NCBI GenBank assembly: GCA_037833965.1
Contig: AP031355.1
Span: 583,501 to 647,500, forward strand
Length of the DNA: 64,000 nt
Source of the DNA: Marchantia polymorpha subsp. ruderalis
Taxonomy: Eukaryota; Streptophyta; Marchantiopsida; Marchantiales; Marchantiaceae
Reading direction: 5' to 3'
Shown here piece by piece: positions 7,227 to 64,000 of this stretch (position 1 is its first letter; each line of letters starts with the position of its first letter). Under the pieces are notes generated by a model. The model did no database searches, was not told where the DNA came from, and saw nothing but the letters and a program-made list of their open reading frames with translations. The translations under genes and the position numbers were made by a program.

Positions 7227-9517
7227 TTGACTACATGCTTTGTCTTATAACTACACTACTTCATCGGTAGCTACATTAAATTTGCAAAACCAAAATGTGA
7301 TATGTATTTACGTTTTATCACACTTTTTTCACATTCACAAAATCACTTATGCAAGTAATGACAAGGATGTGCAAAATTATCACATTTGCAACTATGTTGG
7401 CAAAACTTGCATCCAAGTTGGAATTTCCAAGCCATTACTTTCCACACAATAGCCTGCAACATATAGTTAGAAGAACTTTGCTAGAATTTGATGATGATGT
7501 GCCGTCTGTGGATTTTCAACGTATAATTTAATGATATGCGGTCCATGAAGTGCAATCGATAAAATGATACTTGATGAATCTTTGTAAACTAACAATGATT
7601 TCATCAAGTGATTATCTCATAGTAACAGACAAAGAAGAAATGAATTTAATGAAGCAAGTTGACGTGTTCTTTCAAGAAAGCTGTTATGTTCAATAGTTGG
7701 ATGTAGAATCATATCTTGAATGATGATCATGTAATTGGTTTCAAGAATTCCATTTGAAACATCAAAAAGATATAGCGGATAAATAGTATAAATGGTAAAA
7801 AAATTTAATTTTTGAGAATGTGCCATGGCTCGAGACGTTGGATTTGAGTTTGAGTCGGGTGACGTTGGAAGTCGGCTAACGTTTGAGAAGAGTAGGTTGG
7901 ATGGCTCTCGATCGAGAGTATATGCAAGACAAACTCGAAGAACTGTCAATTCTTGGAGTTGAGCCTTAGGCGTCGGGATTCTACCCATTAGCTTTGATTC
8001 TTATTCTACCTGAGTGTAGTGAGTTTGGCTCGACTCTTGTACCTTGTGTTTCGACGATTATTTTATTATGTTTTTACTCGAAGAACTCACTATCTCTCGT
8101 ATTGAGTTTTGGAGAGTTTTCATGAACGTGTTTGAAGTTTTTGTTGTCAAAGTTGATCGGATGATATCGATGGATTTTCCCTGTCCTCATGTTGCTGAGA
8201 AGGTGATCGTGGGAGAGCAGAGTTCGGGAGTGTAGAATTGGCGTGTTCCATAGCCTCTGTTTGTGTCGGTCCGTGTGTTGGATTTGAATCACACGAGTGG
8301 CAACCCTTTCGACCGTAGAAGTGCTCAAGAGCATTTTTTGTTTTTGCTTGAGAGAAGAGCATTTTAGAAATTTTTGAATTTTTTGATCAGCATTTGGACA
8401 GAGTCCGAGGTTCGGAATGGCATGAATGAGCTGAGAAGGAGATGCCTTGTTTTGCTTTGCTAAAGCAGCAGCAGAAGAAGAATCAGAAGGAGCACTCATA
8501 GCGTCGTCTTCAGAGAATCTCTCGACAGTCTAGGCACTACGTGTTGTTGCATTGATACTATTGCTGCTACGTGTAAATGTCAATGAATAGCGGGCAGAAA
8601 ATACTTGGAAAGGTGTGACTAAAGTGAGGAATGAGTGAAGATCCTGCAGAGCGAAGTTAATAAATGGTGGTGAAGTCGATGCTTCGAACTTGGCCATATA
8701 GTGGTTTTTCTTTGCTGATGCATGGCTGCGGATTTTAGACATATCATTTCACCGCTTTTTTTAACAAAATAAATCTCATGTGACTTCATTCGAACCAGAT
8801 TCCGACTCATTCATCCAACTGTAACTTGAGTGTGGAGGAAGCGACTGTCTAAAGAAGTATTGTTCAGATCAATCCAAAACCAATCAAGCTAACTTATCAG
8901 AGTAGGAAGATCTTTCAAAGGTCTAAGTGTACATGAGCAAAGGGAAACTAACGACTTCGTCTATATGACTCTGAGTACGCTCTATCTGCTGCAATCACCA
9001 ACTCACATATAAATTGTAGCCGTGATCGGGTAGATTGAAAGGGTAGAGGCAAGGAGACTGGATCGGATTGCAGAGGGTGCAGGTGTCTATAGCTCGGCAA
9101 TTGTACTTCCTTGATCGATCAAGCACGTGTTCATCAATTCTTGGGCTGCTGCAATCTGATTGAATACACCAGCGCGAGTAAACTGGTTGCGGGATGTGAT
9201 TGGGTGAAAATCCGTAGGTCGCGGGTCGGTACAGTAGCAGAATGGAATGGAGATGCTTGCAATTTGCAGATTAAAGTATTAAGTACTACTTGATGTGGAA
9301 ACAGAAAGGATGTTTTGAGGGAAACCCAGATTTATCACAAAACTATCTCTGTAGACTTCAGTTTGTCTTTCTTCTACTTATTGTCTTGCATCTGGAACTG
9401 CCACTACTTGCCAAATCACGGTGATGTATACACGGTGCAGTTGGTCGACATCAATCTTAAGTCGCGAATATGATTTTGCCTTATTTATGAACTTCCTCCA
9501 TTCTACGGCGGTGCCGA

Positions 9518-10149: not shown

Positions 10150-11911
10150 AAAAATAAAATATTTTCTCAAGAGATTGAGATTTTGCACTCGTCTCACTTA
10201 TTATGGTTTCTTGGTTGTGAAAATATGGATTTATCATTATTACTTTTCCTATGGGAAACAATTAGGTATATAGACTTTTTCTATATTCTTTGCCCCTAGT
10301 TTCAGTATGAAGTGGAGATATGAGATGAAGTACGGGACAACTCGGCGTGGATATCATCTTTGCGACGGGATGAGCGAGATAGCATTGCAGACGCGGGAGG
10401 CGAAGGATGATAGGAGGCTTTGGAGTTCGGCTCGTGATCGCTATGCGAGGTGATTTCCCATGTGTTGTGTTGTTCTGTGCTGTGTTTCATTTCGGCTGGA
10501 AAGTCGTTGCTAGCTGTTTGCTTGTGTTTGGATACTCTCCAATCTTGCTTCTTGATGCACGCTCATGTCTAGGTTGATGCTGGTTGTTGGAGTAGTTTTA
10601 CTCCTATGTGTTGTCGATAGTGAGGCTGGATTTAATCACCGGCGCCTATCTTTGTTTCTCTTATGGTGAGACTGGAATGATGACCAATGGACCGTGAGAG
10701 TCTTCTTGCGATGATGATAGGTTAGGTTGCCCATACCCATAGTCAGTAGGGCTAGAGCAGGTTAGTGCGGGAACAAGGGCAGGTGGAGTTGTGGCAGTGA
10801 TGCCGGTTAGTGAGTTAGTCGTCATAGAGGAGTTTGGTGGTCCTGGAGGACCGTGGAGGATTTACGCGGAGTGGGTTGAGGTATCAGCTACCTCATCCTA
10901 GCGCAGCAGTGGTTGCAAAGACGCAAGATGTGGCAGATAGTGGATCTTTGGTGGTGATATTGTCTAGGATCTCACACTTGTTGATTGAGGACATGAACGG
11001 GATGTACCGGGCCATGAAGGGCTCACGGCGGTACTCTGATGCAGTGGGCATCATTGAGCTGGCTGACTTTATCCAGGAGTTTGACACTTGGTGCGATATG
11101 TAGTTCTTTCATAAACCCACGTTGTTTACACCCTTCTTTGCATGGAAGAGATTGTTTCAGCATCTGCAGAGGTCTCCCATGGATGATTACCATGAGTTTG
11201 GAAGGGAGTATGCTGTGGAGATTGACGCATGGAGGCATCATTGATCTCCAAACTATATGTCGATTACCCAGGGTGGTGTTGATAGCAGTGGAGGTGCTAG
11301 TAGTATCATCACCGAGGGTACTAGTGGAGCAGCTACCAACGGCGGAGCGGTTAGCGTTGCCAGTAGCAGCACGAGTGGGAAGGCTACTGACGTACCTTTG
11401 TTCAGCCCCATTTCGGAGTTCTTCAAGAGGTTGAGGAATAACTATCAGGGGTGAAGACGGAGAAGCCGAGGAGTCTTTAGGAGTTTGAGCGGAAGACTGG
11501 GGAGAGTCTACGGGAGGCATACACTCGTATGCGGCGGTTGATCTTAGTTACTCACGGTGTAACTGAGGCACATGCGGTCAAGTATTGATACAGGATACTG
11601 GACAGAGAGCTACGGCGGAGAGTTCGGGATGCTACCCTCTCGAGCGATGCGTTATCTACATTGGCCTATGTGTTTGCTCAGTCTCAAGAGATTGAGCTTA
11701 ACATAGTGGAGGAGAGAGTGATGACATCTTCATTCGCTAGAGACACGACCACTACCCCTCGTATCCTGTAGAGCACGGCACAATCTAGACCTTTTGGTGG
11801 TGGTAGTGGTGAAGGTCGTGGGAATCTTGTTCCTTGTGTATGTATATGTGAGTTGTGAGGAGAGCATGTCAGCGATGTATGATGTATGGCGATATCGAGT
11901 CGCACGACAAA
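10150..11911 (+). mobile_element. Partial, internally deleted copy of the methyltransferase-bearing gypsy element
   Basis: From about 10,150 this segment matches the 5' leader of the element at 54.9-63.0 kb, read in opposite orientation. It then matches Gag for about 340 codons to about 11,820. It next jumps to the last 90 bp of the same element: the stretch around CATGTCAGCGATGTATGATG, ending GCACGACAAAG at 11,911. Everything from the Gag zinc knuckles through PHD finger is absent. Leader, truncated Gag and 3' terminus survive in order, so this is one insertion with an internal deletion, not two fragments. No long terminal repeat could be recognised on either side. Confidence 0.85.
10801..11820 (+). 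pseudogene. Gag pseudogene of the partial element
   Basis: It aligns with the N-terminal two-thirds of Gag in the full copy, through LEDRGGFTRSGLRY, ADFIQEFDTWCDM and RELRRRVRDATL. Breaks are visible. TAG at 11101, 11478 and 11769 stands where the full copy has CAG glutamine codons. TGA at 11242 and 11586 stands where the full copy has TGG tryptophan. There are also frame changes near 10,840 and 11,450. An ATG at 10,799 stands where the full copy has GTG, suggesting the ancestral Gag start. The CCHC knuckles are lost in the deletion. Confidence 0.85.
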
Positions 11912-52266: not shown

Positions 52267-54363
52267 TGATCCGCTGTATTTTTTTGTAGTGCCAAGAGGC
52301 CTCTTATGATATGTTTCTTCAGAGCTGAACATTTTTTTCGAAGTTCATGCTTGCAACGTCTCTGTCCGTAGATAAAGTAAATCTTAAGGTGTTTTTGTGA
52401 CACGTCATGCTGCCGAGGTCCGGCAGTATACAACAGATTTGACAACAGAGTACACCCAGTGACTTTTAGCCTGTTCTTCGACGTGATGACTCCAACACGC
52501 AATGGAGGTTCACCGGGATAAAAAGATATTCTTGCCATCGGACTGACCGAGGGAGATGAAGGAGATTGAGAAATTGTGTAAAGTACTGCTTATAGTTGTT
52601 CGGTTCTTTAGTATACCATTAGCAAAGTTTGTCCGGCACTACATACGAACGTACGCATCAGACTTTGCAATGTTTCCGGGCTAGTTTTCGAGAAGATCCG
52701 GTGACAACTCGTATAGTTCCTATGAATAAGAGCTTGGCCAAGTGCCAGTGGCCAAGCGAGGTTACACATAAGGCTGGTAGTCAGTCTAAGAATGTACAGA
52801 CGAAGGAGTATGTAAATTATCTACACCGTGATGTTCTAGGCATCAGCAGTGAAATAAAACCTTGGGCTTGTCGTTCACGTCTCGTGATTGTCGTATCCAG
52901 AACAGAATTTTTAAAATCCAGCTTTACATTGCATGGGTTGCTCGCTGTTGTTTTCCTCGCCCTTACTGTTTCTTTGATATCCAATGATATTTGTAATTGC
53001 TATAACAGTTCATACTCTCGTAATGGCTTCTGCTTATTTAGAAGGTGCTGTTAGCAGTCAGTAGGTTACTTGGTGTTCTCAAGAAAAATTATATAGTTCT
53101 GTCAAATGTGGCCGAAATTATGTAGTCTCTAGCCCAACGGTTACATCCGGAGGGATCCACGATTATTTACACCAACAGTCTCCGCACTCTACAGTCTAAA
53201 ACCTTGAAATTTGTAGGTTGAGTGTGACTGCACAACGACTCTCCGGATGTTGGCCCCGTCACCTGCACGGCAAGTTTCTACTCGTGAGATGTGATGCAGT
53301 ATCACATCCACTAGGCTACGATGCTGTAATAGACAGAGCTTTTAGTCTCCTGCTGTCTTAAACGACAAGAGATCTACTCAATGATTTGTGCTATGCTGCT
53401 AACGTTTACAAATCTCACTATATTCTCGGTGTAGCTCTATGACGCTGGTGGAAAACCGACCGCCCTTCCTCGATGGCACAGGGCACCAGATCAGCCTCGA
53501 TCCGGCATGACATTAAGGTACGGGTATGTTATGTCAGACAGTGAACTTGAGTTATAGATGTATTCCCGCTCTGAGAGAGCTTTTCAAGCAAGTCCGTGGA
53601 CCGGTCCGGTACTCTCAGAACAGGAAATCAGTGTGAGGACAACGGAACACCATATTTGCACACGGTCGGTGCATAAGGTTGCCTGAGAGGCTGTCCTGAT
53701 TTGATGGCGGCAGCTTCTACTACGATTCTACTGCAGAGGACAAATCTAAACTCCTGAACGGATCAGTATTCTGGCTTGGCTCCGAAGAGCTTGTCGCACA
53801 GTCCGAATCAGCGTCGTTCATTTGGGGAAAGGATCCTCATTTCCATTCAGGAAAGGGCTGCTCGTGTATCTAATTTCCTGCTTGGAACAAATCTCACGAC
53901 TGAAAACCGTGCCTCACTTCATGGTGATGATATCCTGGCGTCCAACCTGTACTCATCCCACTGCTGGTGTAAGATTTCGGACTACCCTGGACGTACCCGC
54001 CGCTACGTCTTGTACGAACGCATTCCCTCACTCACGGAAGGAAACATTCATCGACGACTGCAAAAGAAGACTTGAAGATTAGTTCAGTCTACGACAGCAT
54101 GCCGAAAACAACATTCGGACTGGTAGGACAGCTCTTGATCGAAGATGTACTGGGAACGAACCAAGCTCATCTGGGTTTATATATGTTCTCAAAACACGGA
54201 GCTTGTAGGGTATTCTACAGATCAGATGCCATCCGTTCCAGAACGGCAATGTGCAAGCCCTAACCCTAGATGAGCATGACACGGATGACACGCCTTGCGG
54301 GGTTGGGCACTCTTGCTCCTTGTAAGTCATGATAATATGAAACAAAAACGCATATTTAAATAA
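52267..54363. other. Intergenic, downstream of the KCC gene
   Basis: Contains the KCC 3' untranslated region (an AATAAA near 52,853 is a candidate poly(A) signal) and then short frames on both strands with no recognisable domain. Confidence 0.4.
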
Positions 54364-54663
54364 GGTGATATTCATTTTAGTATATATACACCCAAGAAAT
54401 GCCACGCTATACACCAACGCAGTTTAAATCTCACACACCCAAGTAACTACGCAATAGGGATGCACAGCGATTGTTCCAGAATGAGACCCACGCAGTTTAA
54501 ACCGCACACACCCAAGAAATGTCACGCTATACACCCAAGTAATTGCGCAATTTGGATGCACAGCGATTGTTCCAGCATGAGACGTGTATAGCGTGATATT
54601 TTTTGGGTATGTATCACTAAAACTGCTTGGGTATGTGTTAGGTGTATATACACTAAAATCACT
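54364..54663. mobile_element. MITE-like inverted-repeat element, about 300 bp
   Basis: The left end GTGATATTCATTTTAGTATA and the right end, ACTAAAATCAC when read inward, are inverted copies, with ATATACACC next to both. Inner arms containing ACACCCAAGAAAT and CACGCTATACAC are inverted again at about 54,583-54,612. Within it a 96-bp block (GGATGCACAGCGATTGTTCC, at about 54,459 and 54,554) is tandemly repeated. There is no coding capacity. The target-site duplication is not clear. It sits 260 bp beyond the 3' terminus of the large retrotransposon. Confidence 0.7.
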
Positions 54664-54927
54664 ACACTCTTAAAATAAAATTAGACTTAACTAATTCCAC
54701 AAAAGTGACAAAGCAAAAGTCTTGTAAAACAAAACAACCTCGTGTTAGTCCAAATACACTTCATTATTTGAGTAAATTGATTATTCACCCATCTGAAGCA
54801 ATTCACTGATATTGATGAATCCACTGCAACTGATATCACCTCATACTTCTTCCGACGGTATTTTCACATAGACGAGGCTAGCAAACTCTTCTTGGAGTAC
54901 TTTAAACAATATTTCAGTACTTAAAAA
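54664..54927. other. AT-rich spacer between the MITE and the retrotransposon end
   Basis: This is where a 3' long terminal repeat would be expected. It shows no obvious match to the 5' leader side of the element, and the partial copy diverges at exactly this boundary (54,928 versus 11,911). Confidence 0.4.
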
Positions 54928-55200
54928 CTTTGTCGTGCGACTTAGTATCGCCATACATCATACATCGCTGACATGCTCTACTCACAACTCACACATACAT
55001 ACACAAGGAACGAGAGTGTCCACACACAAAGGTATCACAACTCGCCCCCCTAGCTGGTGGTCAGGTCCCTCTAACTCCCAGGTAACCCTATCTACAACTA
55101 CATGCTATGCACCTTCGTGGGTGCGCGAACTAGTAGGCCGGGTGCTATGTCGACCCATCGTTAGTCGCCTATCTGCAATTCATAACATGTGAAGATCAAG

Positions 55201-55521
55201 TCATCTACCCTCTGAAGTACATCGAGGACAAACCCACCGTCCAGTAGGAACAACATCGATAGTTAGAGTCAAGCACGACATGTGCCATCACCTAGAACAC
55301 CTATCACACACCAACATATGGGCCGCCTGATCAGTTGACCCACATAACATGCACCTCAAGCCGGCACGTACAATCGCCAAGCTTGGGTCCATAGTACCAT
55401 CCACGTTTGGGAGGTGGCATGGCGCACAGTTGCGCACATGATTCTTCCAAACGACACCGTCACGACCCTCCAACATGAGAACTCCAGAAGGTAACACCTC
55501 TCGCACTCGCAAGATAGTGCG
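55201..55521 (-). pseudogene. Integrase C-terminal tail with PHD finger
   Basis: In frame with integrase after a TGA (55524-55522), the sequence runs through VREVLPSGVLMLEGRDGVVW, a beta-rich stretch like the integrase C-terminal domain, then HVRNCAPCHLPN. A zinc finger follows from 55,353 to 55,219: CMLC, eleven residues, CDRC, four codons, HMSC, fourteen residues, CPRC. This is the full C4HC3 ligand set of a PHD finger, with the conserved tryptophan two residues before the seventh ligand (RWVCPRC). One TGA (55290-55288) falls between the fourth ligand and the histidine; all eight ligands are otherwise intact. PHD fingers bind histone H3 tails. In this position it may direct integration to particular chromatin, as chromodomains do in chromoviruses (inference). 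Confidence 0.82.
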
Positions 55522-56370
55522 TCATGCCGTCACATCCAACGTAGTCGGTGCAGTCTGTTGTAGATAGACGTAGTCTCTCACGCGGAACCTACGAATCGAT
55601 GGTCGATAACCTCCTCCTTGAATAGTTGCATACCGCAACGTATCCCGGTGCTGAGCAATCGCAAGGTTCTCAAACGCTGCAGGCATAACTCTTCGAAAGA
55701 GCACTGCACGTTGAGAACACACTCTCACCCACATATCTGGATCATCAAGGTTCACCACCTCGCTAGACTCACGACGAATCGCTGCAGGCAAGTCTGGATC
55801 TCGGCCGTACAATAGAAAATATGGTGAAAACGAAGCCAAGGATGCTTGACGACTGAATCGATATCCCATGGCCAACCATGGTAACTGAATATCCCAGTCC
55901 CCAAGATGCCCCTTCTGTAGGCCATACTTGCGCAACGCTCTCTTCACCGTCTGTACCATCCGCTCAGCCAAACCATCCGCCTCTGGATGATCTCGGGAAG
56001 TAGTCCGGTGATCAATCAGCGTCTTGTCACACAAGACCTGAAACTCACCCTGAAACTCTGTCCCCTGATCGGTCAACACCTCAGCTGGTGCACCAAAGTG
56101 ACTAAGCACCTTGTCAAGGAAAGCATATGCTTCTCCCTCACTCGCCTTGTCAGGTAATGCCACCAACTCAATCCACTTGGAGAAATGCTCCACCATCACC
56201 AACACATACCGATGATGTCGTGTAGTCAAAGGTAGCAGTCCAACAAAGTCCAAACTCCAACGGTAACCCAATCCCATGATAGGTAAGGGATGTAACTCTG
56301 GTGTCGGGGTATTGAACGATGCCCTCACTCGATCACAAACCATGCAACGTGATACCAAATGCTGCACCTA
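55522..56370 (-). pseudogene. Retrotransposon integrase core
   Basis: Continues the pol frame after TAG at 56370-56368, which splits the N-terminal HHCC zinc domain: the two histidines (RHAHEELGHFGV) lie before it and CMVC just after. The catalytic DDE triad is readable as LDFVGLLP, LTDQGTEFQ and DHPEADGLAERM, with spacing typical of gypsy integrases. It would insert the element cDNA into the genome. The frame ends at a TGA (55524-55522), beyond which the C-terminal tail and PHD finger continue in frame. Apart from the stop, no catalytic residue appears lost. Confidence 0.9.
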
Positions 56371-58338
56371 CGTATGCATACCACGCCACCAATACTGACC
56401 TAGGAGTAAGCTGTACGTACGCTTCACTCCAAAATGTCCCAACTCCTCATGAGCATGCCTCACAATGCGTGCTCTCTGAGTTGGATGCGGTACTACCCGT
56501 ACCCTACCGTCCTCCCACACTCGGAGAACATGTGCGTTCTCCAATCGGTATCTCTTCGCCCTCTGGAGAACACGATCTCGCTCATTGGCACCCACTGTGC
56601 CTGGCACCATACTGGTCCGTAGGAACTCCAACACCAACGCATCATCGTGAACATCCCGCTGGTCCACACCACCATCCTCAACCTCAGGATCCGAAGACTG
56701 ACTATCTACTCTCTGACTAGAGTAAGATGTCAAGTGGTCCTCACTGCTAGAGGCTCCACAAAACCAACACATGAAGGCCGATGCATGCCAACCGGGCACC
56801 ATCTTCTCATCCACCTCACCATGCCACCTAGCTCCAGTGTCATCCTCCTGGCTAGTGCATGGGTTCCGACTCAAACCGTCGGCATCCAGGTTCGCAACTC
56901 CAGGCCTATGCACCACCTGAAAGTCGTACTCTTGTAAGATGAGAGCCCACCGTGCAAGCTTCCCTGTGAGCTTGTCAGACTCCATCAACCACTTGAGCGG
57001 TTGATGATCGGTAACAAGGGTAAACTGCGTACCAAACAAGTAACACCTGAAGTGTGCCACAGCCCACACCGCTGCCAAACACTCTCCCTCGTACGAACTA
57101 TACCGCGACTCTGCTGCATTGTTCGAACGACTAGTGTACGCAATCACAAACTCCTTGCCCTCATCATCACACTGCGTCAACACCGCTACAAGTCCCAACA
57201 TACTCCAATCAGTGTGCAACTGGTATGGTCGACCTCTGATAGGTCTCCTCAAGATGGGAGCGGCCACCAACCTGGCCTTGAGCTCAACAAAAGCTCTCTC
57301 CTGCTCATCTCCCCATTGCCACTCCTGATCCGACTTCAGCAATTGGTTCAAAGGCTTCGCTATAGCACTGAATCCCTTCACATATCTCCGGTAATAGTTC
57401 GCCAAACCCATGAATGCACGAACTCTACTCACATCCGCTGGACGAGGAATGCGTGCAATAGCCTCCACCTTTGCCTGCTGAACTCCCAAACCACCTGGGT
57501 AGATCACATGACCCAAGTACTCCACCTTCTCCTGGAAGAACCTACACTTCCCAGGATGTAACCGCAGACCATGAGCCCTTAACCGCTCAAGCACAATCTG
57601 CAAATGTATCTGGTGTTGCTCCACCGTGTCGCTAAACACCAAGATATCATCAATGTAACATCTGACAAAATCTAGCCCCGCTAGAATCCTGTCCATCACT
57701 CTCTGGAACTCGGCAGGTGCATTCTTCAACCCAAAGGGTAAGAATCGCCACTTATACAAACAATCCATGTCGTGAGAGTTGACACCCCAAAACGCTGTCT
57801 TGGCCTTGTCCTCCTCTCGAATTGGCAACTGGTGGTATCCCGCCCGAAGATCCAAAGTACTAAAAATCTTCGCATGTCCCACCACATCGAAGATCTCCTC
57901 AAGTGTAGGCATGGCATACTTATCGGCCTTCGTCTGCCGATTGATAGGACGGTAATCTCCACACATCCGCCTATCCGTGTAGTTGCCATGTACATCCTTC
58001 TTCGCTGGCATAACAGTGGCTGAAGCATACTCACCATGCAACAACTCCACTAACCCAGCCTCCAATAACTCCAACGTCCGACTCTTAATCAAGTCCCTTT
58101 CCATATCACTATATCGATAGGGACGACGGAAGATTGGCGTATCACTAGCCAATTCTATCCGTATGCCGGGTCCAATCAAAGTACCCAACTCCTTCATACT
58201 GAAGGCAAAACAACTCCTATAGTCACGTAGGAATTGTATCAACCGTCGCCTCTCTACTCCGGTGATCTGAAAACCAATCGATGGCTCCCACTCCTCCTCC
58301 ATGGAGCCACAAGAGGGAGGCGATACTGTCACTGGTTG
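56371..58338 (-). CDS. Reverse transcriptase and RNase H
   Basis: About 650 open codons. Reverse transcriptase motifs are STLDLRAGYHQLPI (first catalytic Asp, codon about 161), FLPFGLKNAPAEFQ, and YIDD (57,657-57,646), a variant of the YxDD box, with LVFSD after it. RNase H follows with LHTDWSMLGLVAVLTQ, YEGECLAAVWAV, LVTDHQPLKWLM and LDADGLSRNP, which place its acidic residues. The linker contains a CWFC pair and leads into the HHCC domain of integrase. It copies element RNA into DNA in the particle. The frame lies between two TAG codons (58339 and 56368), both in the same frame as flanking coding sequence, so this is an internal piece of the polyprotein and not a separate gene. Its first in-frame ATG is only a convenience. 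Confidence 0.93.
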
Positions 58339-58593
58339 CTATGACACCTCCTCCAAAGAAGGGTTCACCGAACCCTCCTTCGTAGCAACCTCCCCGTGAC
58401 CAACATCTCCAACTGCATGGGCGTCTACTCTCGCAAGTCCTCTCGCCACGTCCCATGAACTCCAAGGATGACGAATATCTCGCAGATCGCCCCCAGCCAT
58501 TGCCACTACCGTCCCGGTAGGCAATGAGCTAATAAGTGGTGTAACAACCACCAAATTTGCGCGCAAACGGCGTTGCTCGGCCAAACCCAAGCT

Positions 58594-59515
58594 CACAATC
58601 CATGTCAAGCAGTTCAGGTCCATAGCCTGACCCAAAACCTGACGACGCGATGCCTCTGAAACTGAAGAAGCTGCGGTCACACCAGTAAGAAACCCCATAG
58701 CACGCTCTCTCTCATCAGCGTTGGGCTCCACCAACTAATGTAGGGTACTGTCCCACAGTAGTCCAGGTCCCCCATCACGATATGCATGTGATGCCGGATA
58801 ACTGACCAACGTAGGCAAAGCCATCCGAGGCTGACCTACGTGGTTCACCAATGCCATGGGTGACCTATCCGCCATTCTCACCACTTGAGAGTATCAAGAG
58901 ACATCCAAGATCCTATCAACGGTGAGGGTAGGATCACGATGCACAGAATCATACGCATGACGCAATATCTCTCGTGGTACAAGGTTGGTCCACCACAAAC
59001 GTGCACGATGAGCACGTGAACCAACCCTCGCAGCATCCAACAACACTGCTGATCCAATCCATGCCCTGACCTCATGGACACTCGCCATCAACTGGGCCCG
59101 AGTGTCACCCAACAATGGTACGTTCTCTAGAATGTATGCTGGAGAACGTGTCTGCTGCTCCTGGAGATGACGTAACACTCGTAGCATCTCCCAAAACATC
59201 CGAGATCTCGGGTCATGTAACCCTGCTCCATGCCCAGCGAGTGTGTGCCCCTGACATGGCCATCCCGCAATCATCAAATCAATATGTCCAACTCGATCGA
59301 GGTCTGGCGCCCCCAGCAATGAAATGTCTGCAGGCAACGCCTTCTGGTATCCTCGAACAGCTGATCGCGGCAACAACAAAGGAAAACGCTGCATCAACTG
59401 TGTAACATGTCGTGAAGAAACCTGACGTGCAGTCTCGTCCTTCTCCACGTACAAGAATACCTGACTGCAACACTGCAGCCAAACCCGTGCTGATCCCTCC
59501 AAAAAGATCCAGCAA
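58594..59515 (-). pseudogene. DNMT3-like C5-cytosine DNA methyltransferase domain within pol
   Basis: Motif I LLDLFGGISTGLAAVLQSG (59,515-59,459) is the S-adenosylmethionine site. After a frameshift near 59,460 follow YVEKDETARQVSSRH (motif II region), IDLMIAGWPCQGHTLAG (motif IV, catalytic Cys codon 59,256-59,254), ILENVP (motif VI, Glu-Asn-Val at 59,127-59,119), and VGSRAHRARLWW (motif VIII, 59,025-58,990), close to the AAHRAR pattern of DNMT3. TGA at 58894 and TAG at 58735 interrupt the target-recognition part. Motif X, RRQVLGQAMDLNCLTWIV (58,647-58,594), completes a domain of about 310 codons. Motif order is canonical, unlike plant DRM enzymes, whose order is permuted. It would methylate cytosine at carbon 5, perhaps on the element's own cDNA. 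This copy cannot make an intact enzyme. Confidence 0.88.
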
Positions 59516-60073
59516 ACAAACATCCTATGGGGAATACTCCCATACGATAGGTGTAGTAACTAATGGTGATAGGGTGCTAAGACCACATACTAGCCGACCA
59601 TCTGAGACTCGCTCTGCCTCTGCTGGTAAAGAGGCCTCACTCCAAGCCTACTTCACCAACCTATCAGCCTCCTGCTGTAATGCGTGGCAAGAATCCCAAA
59701 GTGGAACATCCAAAGATGATGACACTGCCGCTGCGAGACTCACCATCTCCTCCACCTCCTCATAGACTGGAGTATCCTCGGCTGACCTGTTCCCCTCCAA
59801 CAAGTCATCAGGCCATGTGAGCACTCCACTGAAACCCGCAATAGAGGCTAAAACTGCAGGAGAAGATCCAAGAGGCCGATCTCGAGAAATGAACCTCACA
59901 GGCAGCTCACTCATACGTCCATCAGCGGACTCCCAACCAGGGCGATAAGCTGCCGTCTCCGTCCAATAATCCATCCGAAATTCCATCGGATATAACACCG
60001 CTCCACCAACAAGCACATCATATGACTCTGCTGATGTAACCACCGCTCGAACTCCAAACTGCGAGCTATCCTA
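59516..60073 (-). pseudogene. Linker between protease and methyltransferase
   Basis: It stays in frame with protease through TAG codons at 60071, 59648 and 59525, and runs directly into methyltransferase motif I. About 185 codons, including FGVRAVVTSAESYDVLVGG and VLTWPDDLLEGN. The first phrase resembles the end of a retroviral-type protease fold (a strand followed by ILxG), so part of this stretch probably belongs to protease. The acidic remainder (PVYEEVEEMVSLAAAV) has no motif I recognise. Confidence 0.6.
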
Positions 60074-60736
60074 AGCATGACCATGCCTCAACTGCACTGA
60101 TATGCGCTCTCTGGTCATCCTGTAAGACCTGTCGCTGGTTCCACCGAGTGATGTCTGAATCTGGAACGGACAAGGCTCCAACTCGGACTTCCGAACTCCC
60201 AAACTAATGCAGGCAATCTTGCCCAACATCAAAGGCTGTGCACCAGAATCCAACAACACTTTGAGTGGAACATACACCTGCCCTATAGCACTCACCAAGC
60301 AAAATACACCGCTCCGGTTGTCCACCATACACACACCAGGTACAACCCTCTCTCGATCAATGGCTGGTCGGGCTGGCAAGGACTCCATCCGTGCCGCTGC
60401 CGCCTGCCATGTCGACTCATCGCTCGATGGAGTCGTAGAGGATAGCTCCTCACCAATAGTCTCGCCTATCTCGGCACTCGTAGCAGTGATACTCCCACGT
60501 TCACACAACGTGGCTGCTGCACGAAAAACCCGAGCCAAGTCAATCCAAGAGTCCATCAGCTCCATAGCTGAAAATAATGGAGATCTCATCACTAAGCTAG
60601 CCATCTGCGTCACTGCATTAGATGATGTGTCCGTGTCCACCACACGTGACGTAGATGTCTCAGTCCTCCCACTAAGGCCACTAGGTGGTACAGGTCTCAT
60701 GGATGAAGTACTGCCCACCTCTGACAGCAAAAACGA
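60074..60736 (-). CDS. Retrotransposon aspartic protease region
   Basis: Continues the Gag frame after TAG at 60739-60737. A Ser/Thr-rich linker of about 130 codons leads to VYVPLKVLLDSGAQPLMLG, with the DSG catalytic triplet at 60,250-60,242, the usual single active-site loop of a dimeric retropepsin. The following SLGGTSDRSYRMTRERISVQ is compatible with the rest of the fold. It would cut the Gag-Pol polyprotein. The segment ends at TAG 60071 with the frame continuing. Confidence 0.85.
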
Positions 60737-62374
60737 CTAGGGAAGTCTGGCCTCACGCCCACCCTCACCCCTCTGAGGATCCAACTCCCCTGTCGCACCG
60801 CGTGGCTCTAGAGCTTGAGCTGCACCTCTAGTCACTGCAACCGATGCCTCCACCTGTGCTGCACTCGCTAGATAAGGGAAATCCTCTTCCTTGTAAGAGG
60901 TGGAAGTGCTCGCCCCAGAACTCACCATAGCAGCAAGCCTCTGCTCCAACTGCTCTATACGAGCAGCCATCGCGCTCTCTGTGGCCGAAGTAGCACTCGC
61001 TACAAGACGTCCAACTACACCGGCACCTCGACCACCTCTACTAGCACGGCCACCTCGACCTCGAGAAGCATCACCACCACGACCTCTACCATCAGATGTC
61101 AACTCTGGATGAAGGTCAAAACACCGATCTCGAGTATGACCTGCTCGACCACAGTGGTCACACACCACCTGTGCTGACTGGGGTCTAGCCTGTGAACTCT
61201 GACCTCCGGCCTCATGGGGACAATCTCTCCGCCGATGATCCCCTCCACATGTCCAACATGCTGGTCCCTGCTGCTGGCCAGCAAACGACGGCACTAGTGC
61301 ACGTGCCCCTGTATCTCTAGCGGCTATCTGGTGTCGTGTCTGCACTCCGCGATCCCCACCACTACCACCACCAAAGGGTCTAGACTGTGCCGTGCTCTGC
61401 GGAACACGAGAGGTAGTGGCTGCGTCTCTAGCGAATGAAGAAGTCACCACTCTCTCCTCCACTATGTTAAGCTCAATCTTCTCAGAAAGAGCAAACACAT
61501 AGGCCAATGTCGGTGACGCATCGCTCAAGAGGGTAGCATCCCGAACCCTCCGCCGTAGCTCTCTGTCCAGTATCCTGTACCAATACTGGACCGCCTGTGC
61601 CTCAGTTACACCGTGAGTAACTGAGATCAACCGCCGCATACGCGTGTATGCCTCCCGAAGACTCTCACCAGTCTTCCGCTCAAACACCTGGAGACTCCTC
61701 AACTTCTCCGTCCTCATCCCCTGATAGTTCTTCCTCAACCTCTTGAAGAACTCAGGAATGGGGCTGAACGAAGGTACGCAAGTAGTCTCTCCACTCGTGC
61801 TGGCAACGCCAACAGCACCGCTGGTGGTACCTGCTCCACTAGTACCATCGGTGATGCTACCACTCGCACCTCCACTGGTACCAACGCCACCCTCGGTGAT
61901 CGACGTATAGTTTGGAGACCAATGACGTCTCCATGCGTCAATCTCCACAGCATACTCTCTCCCAAACTCATGGTATTCATCCATGGGAGGCCCCTTCAGA
62001 TGCTGAAACAACCCCTTCCATGCAAAGAAGGGTGTAAACAACGTGGGGTTACGCAAGAACTGCATATCGCACCACGTGTCAAACTCCTGGATGAAATCAT
62101 CCAACTCAATGGTGCCCACTGCACCAGAGTACCGCCGTGGGCCCTTCATGGCCCCGTACATACCGTCCATGTCCCCAGTCCACGAGTGTGGGACCCTAGA
62201 CGATATCACCATCAAAGATCCGCTATCTGCCACACTCCGCGCCTCTACAACCACTGATGCGCTAGGATGAGGTAGCCGATACCTCAATCCACTCCGCGTA
62301 AATCCTCCACGGTCCTCAACGGAACCCCCAAACTCCTCTGTGATGACTGACTCACCAATCGGCACCACTGCCAC
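60737..62374 (-). CDS. Retrotransposon Gag with two zinc knuckles
   Basis: An open frame of about 545 codons. Residues 80-300 hold the capsid-like retrotransposon Gag domain (IQEFDTWCDM; EFFKRLRKNYQGMRTEKL; YWYRILDRELRRRVRDATL). Two CX2CX4HX4C nucleocapsid knuckles follow, CWTCGGDHRRRDC (about residues 373-385) and CDHCGRAGHTRDRC (405-418), then an RG-rich stretch and a short coiled coil (MAARIEQLEQRLAAM). It forms the particle and packs element RNA. No ATG opens the frame at its left limit: a GTG near 62,365 stands where the partial copy has ATG, so the start codon may have been lost. The ending TAG (60737) may be an original Gag/Pol boundary or one more decay stop; context does not decide. 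Confidence 0.92.
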   Translation of the reverse strand: MAVVPIGESVITEEFGGSVEDRGGFTRSGLRYRLPHPSASVVVEARSVADSGSLMVISSRVPHSWTGDMDGMYGAMKGPRRYSGAVGTIELDDFIQEFDTWCDMQFLRNPTLFTPFFAWKGLFQHLKGPPMDEYHEFGREYAVEIDAWRRHWSPNYTSITEGGVGTSGGASGSITDGTSGAGTTSGAVGVASTSGETTCVPSFSPIPEFFKRLRKNYQGMRTEKLRSLQVFERKTGESLREAYTRMRRLISVTHGVTEAQAVQYWYRILDRELRRRVRDATLLSDASPTLAYVFALSEKIELNIVEERVVTSSFARDAATTSRVPQSTAQSRPFGGGSGGDRGVQTRHQIAARDTGARALVPSFAGQQQGPACWTCGGDHRRRDCPHEAGGQSSQARPQSAQVVCDHCGRAGHTRDRCFDLHPELTSDGRGRGGDASRGRGGRASRGGRGAGVVGRLVASATSATESAMAARIEQLEQRLAAMVSSGASTSTSYKEEDFPYLASAAQVEASVAVTRGAAQALEPRGATGELDPQRGEGGREARLP

Positions 62375-63026
62375 AACTCCACCTGCCCTCGTCCCTGCAC
62401 TAACCTGCTCTAGCCCTACTGACTATGGGTATGGGCAACCTAACCCGTCATCAACGCAAGAAGACTCTCCTGGTCCACTGGTCATCACTCCAATCTCACC
62501 ATGAGAGAAACAAAGATAGGCGCCGGTGATCAAATCCAGCCGCACTATCGACAGCACACTGGAGTAAAACTACTCCGGAAATCAACGTCAACCCAGACAT
62601 GGGCGCTCATCAAGAAGCCAGACTGGAGAGGATCCAAACACAAGCAAACAGCTAGCAACGACTCTCCAGCCGAAATGAAACACAACACAGAGCAACATAA
62701 CACACGGGAAGTCGCCTCGCATAACGATCCCGAGTCGAGCTCCATTGCCTCTATCATCCTCCACCTCCCGCGCCTGCAACGTTATCTCGCTCATCCCGTC
62801 GCAAAAAAATAATGACCTCCACGCCGAGCTATCCCGTACTTCACCTCATACCTCCACTTCACACTACAAATAGAGGCGTCGAATATAACAAATATGAAAA
62901 GCCTATCTACCCTAACTGTTTGCCATAGAAAAAAAAACAAAATAGAGATAAAGCAATATTTTTACAACCAACAAACCATAGTAAGTGAGACGAGTACAAA
63001 TTCTCAATCTCTTCAGAATATTTTCC
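62375..63026 (-). other. 5' leader of the retrotransposon
   Basis: Alignable through most of its length to 10,150-10,830 of the partial copy. Shared blocks include GAAGTACGGGA, TTTCATTTCGGCTGGA and CACCGGCGCCTATCTTTG. It should hold the packaging signal, the primer-binding site and perhaps part of a long terminal repeat. I could not find a convincing tRNA-complementary site beginning TGG, and no copy of this sequence lies at the other end of the element. Similarity stops at an A/G-rich tract near 63,026. Confidence 0.75.
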
Positions 63027-63029
63027 TCT

Positions 63030-63095
63030 TTTTTTTTTTTCTTTTTTTTTCTGCTTTTCCTCTTCCTCTCCTTCCTTCCTTCCTTCCTTCCTTTT
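63030..63095. repeat. Poly-T tract and (TTCC)n microsatellite
   Basis: Long T runs broken by single C bases are followed by five or more TTCC units. It directly abuts the 5' limit of the retrotransposon. The partial copy at 10.15 kb is likewise preceded by an A/G-rich tract, so the tract may belong to the element end or to a preferred target. Confidence 0.8.
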
Positions 63096-64000
63096 TGGCT
63101 TACTGCCCACCTTACTACCTGCTGTAACCTTTAAACAAAGCCTTGTACAGCACGTCTCCACTGCCGCATCTTCGAAGAGTATTCTCGTTCCGATGCTTTC
63201 CGAATTTGACTTTTACAAAGCAGCCTAACGATCCTTTCCCCAAGCTACATTCCCATGTGCTTCACTGTCCGCGAGGTGGATCTCTTTAAGTGCTATTCCA
63301 GATATCGGATTTGGCCTGTGCAGTGTAATGAGCCCTAAAGTGGCTACCTTTTAAAAATAATTACAGTAAGGTCCGAGCTCGGTACGTTGATCCTCAGAAT
63401 GCGTGATTTCTTGATGTCTAACAGCTACAGGTCTATTTCTTCCCGCGGAGACATCAGATCTGACAGTTGCAAACAACATTCAGGTTTCCAGCTCTTCATG
63501 AAAGATAGGATCAATGCCAACGAAATAATCCCGTGTATCGATGTTCGCCTCAACAGTCGAATCGGTGACTATCTCTTTGCCCCTCTTAAAACATGGAAAC
63601 TGCTGTCAGTTGTATGTCTGAGATCCAGACTTGCGTTTGTCCCCTATGCTATGCCTTAAAACCAGAAGTTGGGCAGTCATGTACGTCCAGAACTGTCAAG
63701 CGAGCAGTGCTATACTGCATGCAAACGTCGAAGTGTAGAAATGCTTCGTTTCGGCAAACAACTCTCAGTGTTAAGATGTCCACCATTCACCTCCCGAGAG
63801 TCCCAAGCACGGGAAAGTCGGTGACATGATAACGCAAGCTGCTTCCTGCCAAAGATCGCAAATCCGAAGCTGCCGCTCCAACCGCCGAGCGAGATTCTCT
63901 ATTCGATCCTACGTTCTTAGCCTACATCTGCACCCCGACTGAGCTCGGGTCGACGTCAATGCGGCCAACGCCCACGAACCGAGCCAGTCCCATAATCTAT
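63096..64000. other. Intergenic to the end of the window
   Basis: No gene recognised. Short frames on both strands lack motifs. A multi-exon gene extending past the window cannot be excluded. Confidence 0.4.

Follow-up and report, generated by a model that had tools for sequence, protein, structure and literature searches.

Why would a genomic parasite carry an enzyme of the kind that its hosts use to silence parasites? The question is raised by a 64,000-nucleotide stretch of Marchantia polymorpha subsp. ruderalis (the window; bases 583,501-647,500 of contig C6), which holds on its minus strand, at 62.4-54.9 kb, a Ty3/Gypsy retrotransposon with a cytosine methyltransferase between protease and reverse transcriptase (RT). 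By open reading frames (ORFs), Pfam matches and mapping with a relative, gag and protease come first, then a linker, the cytosine methyltransferase, RT and RNase H, and lastly integrase and a PHD finger (Table 1). An original prediction made from the window sequence had placed a methyltransferase between protease and RT of a Ty3/Gypsy gag-pol, in a land-plant-like genome, and both points hold. We searched the genome (241 Mb, nine contigs) for further copies, and consider it probable that this anatomy is a trait of the whole family and that the enzyme plays a catalytic part in the element's cycle. Places in the genome are labelled L, and proteins P.

The enzyme and its junction with reverse transcriptase

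Motif strings and a model place motifs I, IV (PCQ/PCN), VI (ENV), VIII, IX and X in unpermuted order, as in DNMT3. Window positions 58894-59559 (minus strand) match Pfam DNA_methylase (PF00145, E 2.8e-10), DNMT3A structures match best among those solved (E 6e-7), and in both sequence and fold the enzyme is nearer to DNMT3 than to DNMT1, DNMT2 or bacterial enzymes, which bears out the predicted DNMT3-like identity and motif order. The strings of motifs I, IV, VI, VIII and IX were exact in all 18 ORF1s checked, and that of motif X in 17. The domain looks able to act as a DNMT3-type C5 cytosine methyltransferase and is predicted to methylate DNA. It shares catalytic fold and motif order with human DNMT3A/3B and the host DNMT3s (DRM being permuted), yet is only 19-33% identical to these and the DRMs in the rows compared, forms part of a Gag polyprotein, and has neither PWWP nor ADD domain by Pfam in ORF1.

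ORF2, which begins with RT, lies in the same frame as ORF1 with one stop codon between them. This stop was UAG in all 28 aligned rows, or 25 distinct copies (29 rows were given; L003 had no match, and L001, L006 and L007 duplicate the window copy, L009 and L010), and its interpretation as damage was rejected because the codon is identical in every distinct copy. The codons preceding it differ between two subfamilies, while CAACCA follows it in 21 of the 25 copies, CAACAA in two, and CAACTA and CAACGA in one each. UAG CAR YYA is a leaky stop context of plant viruses, and 22 copies fit this pattern (21 with CAA CCA, one with CAA CTA). We infer that Gag-protease-enzyme would be the default product, with the full chain arising by readthrough.

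The window copy had been predicted to run in frame from protease to RT apart from one frameshift. One frame break was indeed present within the enzyme (59457/59447), but the enzyme also has at least one premature stop, and the conserved UAG separates it from RT. Several premature stops occur in the copy as a whole, with minus-strand open frames ending at 60737, 60071 (within the protease region), 59648, 58894 and 56368 (the single premature stop of the integrase); the gag frame extends to 62422. Repeat A and a second repeat B (described below) were not found, two A queries being unmatched between 53,501 and ~67,000. Judged by its sequence, the window copy is a broken member of an otherwise autonomous Ty3/Gypsy family.

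Copies, selection and age of the family

The enzyme is present at at least 150 places in the genome (the best 150 of 765 candidates scored; a place missing from this list may still hold the enzyme), and 26 of these matches lie within an intact ORF1, that is, a stop-free frame of 1348-1365 amino acids. Among 20 copies taken as 9.6-kb stretches and selected for long open frames, ORF1 had this length in 18 (the exceptions being L016 and L017), 13 of which also carry a full ORF2 of 1042-1045 amino acids. M. polymorpha gene sets count these ORFs as genes, one of them (P0105) being named 'DNA (cytosine-5...', which calls for caution in using such sets.

Ratios of nonsynonymous to synonymous substitution (dN/dS) between subfamilies (77 pairs for ORF1, 36 for ORF2) were 0.13 for the enzyme, 0.11 for protease, 0.06 for RT, 0.07 for integrase and 0.14 for the PHD finger, compared with 0.23 for the linker and 0.63 for the tail that follows the enzyme. 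On these sequences, the enzyme is under purifying selection. Many insertions are very recent, since the B arms of 15 copies showed one difference in 1743 bases and the first and last A repeats (A1 and A2) were 99.7% alike in L022 and 99.3% in L028, although copies had been picked by their open frames, and part of the likeness could come from conversion, the arms lying 0.4 kb apart.

We next consider whether members without the enzyme exist. Among the best 150 of 615 candidate matches to the end of ORF2, 107 had a same-strand enzyme match 2.5-16 kb upstream (on a comparison list of 176 places), 93 of them at the standard spacing of 3.5-4.0 kb. Twelve of the 43 remaining ends were inspected, and none joined gag-protease directly to RT. 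The enzyme was found in three (L043, L044, L051), and its first part in L052 with L060, followed by a deletion running into RT. The other eight had no ORF1 at the spot read: three were truncations, beginning just upstream of the UAG (L045 with L059), cut within ORF2 (L053 with L061) or retaining RT from about residue 58 onward (L047 with L056); one was a different Gypsy pol (L054, 30%); two showed no likeness at the spot read (L048 with L057, and L050); and two were fusions of a foreign frame to ORF2 (L082, L083). A further place, bordering L021, shows no more of ORF1 than its end ahead of ORF2. A one-off insertion or host-gene fragment in the window, either of which would have undone the original prediction, was accordingly rejected on the family-wide presence of the enzyme.

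The fusion at L082 bears on how such elements gain genes. At L046, L055 and L082, repeat A is followed by a piece resembling an epimerase (PF01370, E 2.3e-10), which continues in frame into RT at residue 121. This place (C9:19402957-19407818; L046, L055, L080-L082) is a derivative of 4.9 kb that keeps both A repeats and has a 4-bp duplication (CCGT); it has lost ORF1 and the beginning of RT, and the epimerase-RT fusion forms one open frame of 1140 amino acids. It looks like a captured host transcript. At L049, L058 and L083, a foreign frame is joined to ORF2 from residue 518 onward, and in L083 (C5:12419900-12423600) the long frame before ORF2 has no Pfam match and one in-frame TAG. A second place like L083, with identical frame length, lies at C5:12477203. 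Leaders of 2.7-4.1 kb between repeat A and ORF1 (L029/L022, L030/L009) contain antisense pieces of host genes, namely a Sec63 domain in L022 (E 5.7e-35) and a nucleoside transporter in L009 (E 2.2e-4, below the curated cut-off). As leaders vary widely among copies, gene capture seems frequent in this family, and it offers a route by which a DNMT3 may once have entered.

Relatives and the origin of the enzyme

Methyltransferase retrotransposons are already known from a charophyte, as the original prediction had noted. De Mendoza et al. (2018; PMC5890265) describe such elements in Klebsormidium nitens and dinoflagellates, with the reason for carrying the enzyme left open in the main text. According to that text, KnitGypsy-Dnmt3 of K. 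nitens is a Gypsy element with an unpermuted Dnmt3 in its coding region, purifying selection and DIRS-like repeats, and its figure legend gives split repeats with Gypsy-type domains, as here. Compared against this published description (the KnitGypsy-Dnmt3 sequence itself was not among the matched proteins listed), the Marchantia family likewise combines a Dnmt3 in a Gypsy coding region with DIRS-like repeats. KnitGypsy-Dnmt3 differs in its charophyte algal host and in its copies, called fewer than in Symbiodinium; a PHD finger is absent from the main text of PMC5890265, and its sections on this element contain neither a leaky stop nor a target duplication. SymbioDIRS-Dnmt3 of dinoflagellates also has a Dnmt3 in a retrotransposon polyprotein and split repeats (A-coding-B-A-B), but is described there as integrating by tyrosine recombinase, whereas the Marchantia family has a DDE integrase and 4-bp target duplications.

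The main text of PMC5890265 does not mention Marchantia or liverworts. A passage of PMC6338049 places methylase-encoding transposons in green algae and charophytes, and says that land plants, such as tracheophytes, lack them; PMC12344493, in the part concerned, again gives the range as 'streptophytes and dinoflagellates'. Term searches within PMC5784723 and PMC6453930 gave nothing on methyltransferase retrotransposons, and no paper on such elements in bryophytes was found by title or abstract among the open-licence full texts listed. As far as these searches go, the following are new: a host among land plants, the position of the enzyme between protease and a conserved, putatively leaky stop, the PHD finger, split repeats combined with target duplications, and a link to another architecture found in green algae.

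P0102 (Mp_4g09160 of M. polymorpha subsp. ruderalis) is matched by ORF1 of L013 at 100% identity over 1278 amino acids. Likeness of 53-92% to ORF1 or the enzyme, in some cases along a short stretch, was seen in proteins of M. polymorpha, M. paleacea, Riccia sorocarpa, Calypogeia fissa, Sphagnum fallax, S. troendelagicum and metagenomes, with the enzyme domain at an equivalent place in Marchantia, Sphagnum and metagenomic relatives. P0120-P0124 (40-44%) are also gag-protease-enzyme proteins that end after the enzyme. Among the best 120 of 165 matches, we found a second architecture, RT-RNase H-enzyme-integrase-PHD, in which the enzyme follows RNase H, precedes integrase and shares the frame of RT. 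It occurs in Haematococcus lacustris (P0200) and in metagenomic proteins such as P0126, and a shorter Chromochloris protein (P0214) has RNase H-enzyme-integrase; a profile scan found RT, enzyme, integrase and PHD together in at least 32 proteins. P0152 (protease 154-245, enzyme 912-1245, no RT seen) could be placed in neither architecture. The C-terminal 200 residues of P0125 and P0128 contain a DPWAG motif reminiscent of adenine methyltransferases, in a region without Pfam match.

In a tree of 43 enzyme rows, the two architecture groups each formed one clade (96/92 and 88/92), and both together stood apart (100/100) from the five cellular rows (human DNMT3A and the host's two DNMT3s and two DRMs), at a join where long branches meet. 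Four of the 12 bryophyte-type rows (P0001, P0002, P0014, P0019) and P0152 were labelled by likeness rather than complete architecture, and the letter make-up is odd in four rows, three of which are host enzymes. In a tree of 124 rows, 28 of unknown type, the groups were supported at 85 and 94 (Shimodaira-Hasegawa-like approximate likelihood ratio test). The genome's own enzymes, two intron-bearing DNMT3-like and two permuted DRM-type genes (L039 at C6:12457500, L040 at C2:6439000, L041, L042), are separate from the elements. Recent capture from the host's DNMT3 was rejected, based on 23-24% identity to its two DNMT3s and the separate clade; of the predicted DNMT3 capture, the DNMT3-like ancestry stood, while a present-day bryophyte DNMT3 as its source did not, nor did the enzyme prove a recent host-gene fragment.

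Bryophyte-type and algal-type elements may instead have captured related methyltransferases separately, which we regard as somewhat unlikely. The enzyme does occupy two positions (protease-enzyme-UAG-RT and RNase H-enzyme-integrase), this family takes up host genes readily, and independent acquisition in the Klebsormidium lineage is described in PMC5890265. Nonetheless, the enzymes of both groups form one clade relative to the cellular rows, and the elements share more than the enzyme. RT alone gave only a weak tie between architectures (34-43% in short local alignments, for those aligned in full, compared with 40% for Ty3), and was set aside as evidence of close relationship; RT-RNase H, however, was 39-47% identical between architectures (Ty3, 38%), integrase 33-51% (Ty3, 27%), and the PHD finger is common to both. 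A whole-genome search for the PHD family at 1e-12 gave no match, its control being unmatched as well. One old capture, with a later move of the enzyme domain, is the reading that we favour.

Ends, integration and possible roles of the enzyme

The best solved relative of ORF2 is Ty3 (E 7e-100), and the Ty3/Gypsy order of gag, protease, RT, RNase H and DDE integrase is present, with gag and protease assigned by weak Pfam scores, position and motif. The ends are of another kind. Two identical long terminal repeats (LTRs) were not found, with no direct repeat pair of at least 40 nt at the two ends within 53,000-64,000 of the window; instead, copies have the arrangement A ... B-A-B, and ordinary LTRs were rejected, the 5' repeat A of fetched copies becoming visible only after reading further upstream. 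Three copies read at both ends have a 5' repeat A (~255-293 nt, TGTCATG...) and a 3' B-A-B whose last B (112-119 nt) ends in ACGACA. Target duplications of 4 bp flank 12 of 13 insertions, comprising all three of these copies (ATCT, TCTT, CAAT) and nine of ten others drawn from repeat pairs among the best 40 of 529 candidates (the exception being the C1 copy L074/L075). One copy, L026, has an additional B-(part of A) unit at its 3' end (8742-9516), giving B-A'-B-A-B.

Such DIRS-like split direct repeats are a mark of DIRS elements, yet the integrase here is of the DDE kind, and a Pfam scan of both ORFs gave rve and no phage-type integrase, that is, no tyrosine recombinase. Split repeats with a DDE integrase thus pose a second puzzle, one of retrotransposon mechanism. 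A purine-rich tract adjoins the first B, and CTCGAAGAAC comes after the first A in three copies; these are candidate plus- and minus-strand priming sites. If they do prime, ordinary reverse transcription would give LTRs ordered B-A, and the integrated form could be a B-A molecule opened at its inner B/A joint, as a two-LTR circle would supply. Genome-wide, the joint sequence ACGACA-NN-TGTCATG was counted 226 times and the reversed pattern five times.

These observations can be drawn into a joint account, which we offer tentatively and, taken whole, doubt more than we believe. One retrotransposon lineage would have had its own de novo methyltransferase throughout green plants since before the chlorophyte/streptophyte split; the enzyme would have moved from the less abundant Pol to the most abundant part, the Gag end, behind a leaky UAG; and the DDE integrase would join DNA opened at an inner palindrome (ACGACA-GC-TGTCAT) where B meets A, so that its substrate would be circular or carry two repeats, rather than having ordinary LTR ends.

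Within the element's cycle, every translation stopping at UAG would yield ORF1 (gag-protease-methyltransferase), to which occasional readthrough would add RT-RNase H-integrase-PHD. Because it lies in ORF1 before the UAG, the enzyme would be made at Gag dose and should enter the virus-like particle. There it would probably methylate the element's double-stranded complementary DNA (cDNA) de novo, before or at integration, such that new copies enter the genome pre-methylated, and the PHD finger would probably steer the integrase towards a histone mark. We put the more specific proposal, self-methylation of cDNA, just short of an even chance.

Several observations weigh against a catalytic role of this kind. 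Within subfamilies, dN/dS rose to 0.19 and 0.23 for the enzyme, 1.10 and 0.49 for the linker, and 0.20 and 0.52 for the PHD finger, because young copies retain unpurged changes, and the copies compared had been picked for long open frames. In L009, the likeness of A1 and A2 reaches only 93.75% when gaps are included, and three of the 25 junctions (CAACAA twice, CAACGA once) depart from CAR YYA. KnitGypsy-Dnmt3 gave no methylation in yeast, a result called inconclusive by its authors in the text of PMC5890265. Furthermore, M. polymorpha LTR retrotransposons are methylated by the host, up to 30% according to a section of PMC5784723, so the benefit of self-methylation is unclear.

It is unlikely, although worth serious attention, that host DNA or RNA is the enzyme's target, or that its contribution is DNA binding or structure, rather than methylation of cDNA. 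DNMT2-type enzymes methylate RNA, and a position at the Gag end suits nucleic-acid binding; however, the catalytic motifs are kept in the ORF1s checked, and the fold best matches the DNA-methylating DNMT3. Quite unlikely, in our view, is that the enzyme limits the element, new copies being methylated and silenced at once with less harm to the host, and the family tolerated as a result. Self-limitation was raised as one possibility for such elements in the text of PMC5890265, and nothing here separates it from camouflage, but the many very young copies indicate a family that is not strongly held back. That the enzyme is an accidental host-gene passenger of the window copy is scarcely credible: host-gene pieces do occur in other copies (L022, L009, L082), but the reading is refuted by the enzyme's presence throughout the family, and purifying selection also speaks against it, as does the shared position of the domain in metagenomic relatives and those from Marchantia and Sphagnum.

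We prefer the reading in which the enzyme acts catalytically within the element's cycle. M. polymorpha can be transformed, edited and profiled, and with at least 150 places in this tractable host, some of the copies very young, the function of the enzyme is directly testable.

Table 1. Parts of the methyltransferase retrotransposon in the window (positions from the first base of the window; boundaries of the protein domains by tblastn with an M. polymorpha relative).
Feature	Position	Strand	Evidence
gag with zinc knuckles	60752..62170	-	tblastn to M. polymorpha relative, 94%; Retrotrans_gag E 0.014, below cut-off
Aspartic protease region	59795..60361	-	tblastn, 95%; open frames; motif LLDSGAQ in 18 ORF1s checked
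Linker, protease to methyltransferase	59564..59791	-	tblastn, 92%
DNMT3-like C5 cytosine methyltransferase, motifs I to X in order	58540..59563	-	mapping with P0102, 95-97% identical
ORF1 C-terminal tail, weakly constrained	58342..58539	-	tblastn, 91%; dN/dS between subfamilies (see text)
Conserved in-frame UAG, then CAA CCA; readthrough-type context	58339..58341	-	alignment of distinct copies (see text)
Reverse transcriptase, ORF2 start	57349..58338	-	RVT_1 E 4.9e-33; relative mapping
RNase H	56839..57348	-	RT_RNaseH E 1.8e-34; relative mapping
DDE integrase with zinc-binding domain	55414..56535	-	Integrase_H2C2 E 1e-9, rve E 8.7e-15; relative mapping
PHD finger, ORF2 C-terminus	55213..55413	-	85% to relative; PF00628 E 1.3e-10 in relative L018
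Candidate polypurine tract AGCTAGGGGGGCG, adjoining repeat B	55043..55055	-	sequence; motif before B1 in 15/15 copies, one change in 2
Repeat B, single	54931..55042	-	98% to B of L009

Elsewhere in the window, a piece of gag from this family (77-78% identical) lies on the plus strand at 10993-11822, split over two frames. Just outside the element, at 54435-54583, a 53-nt unit is repeated twice with 96-nt spacing.
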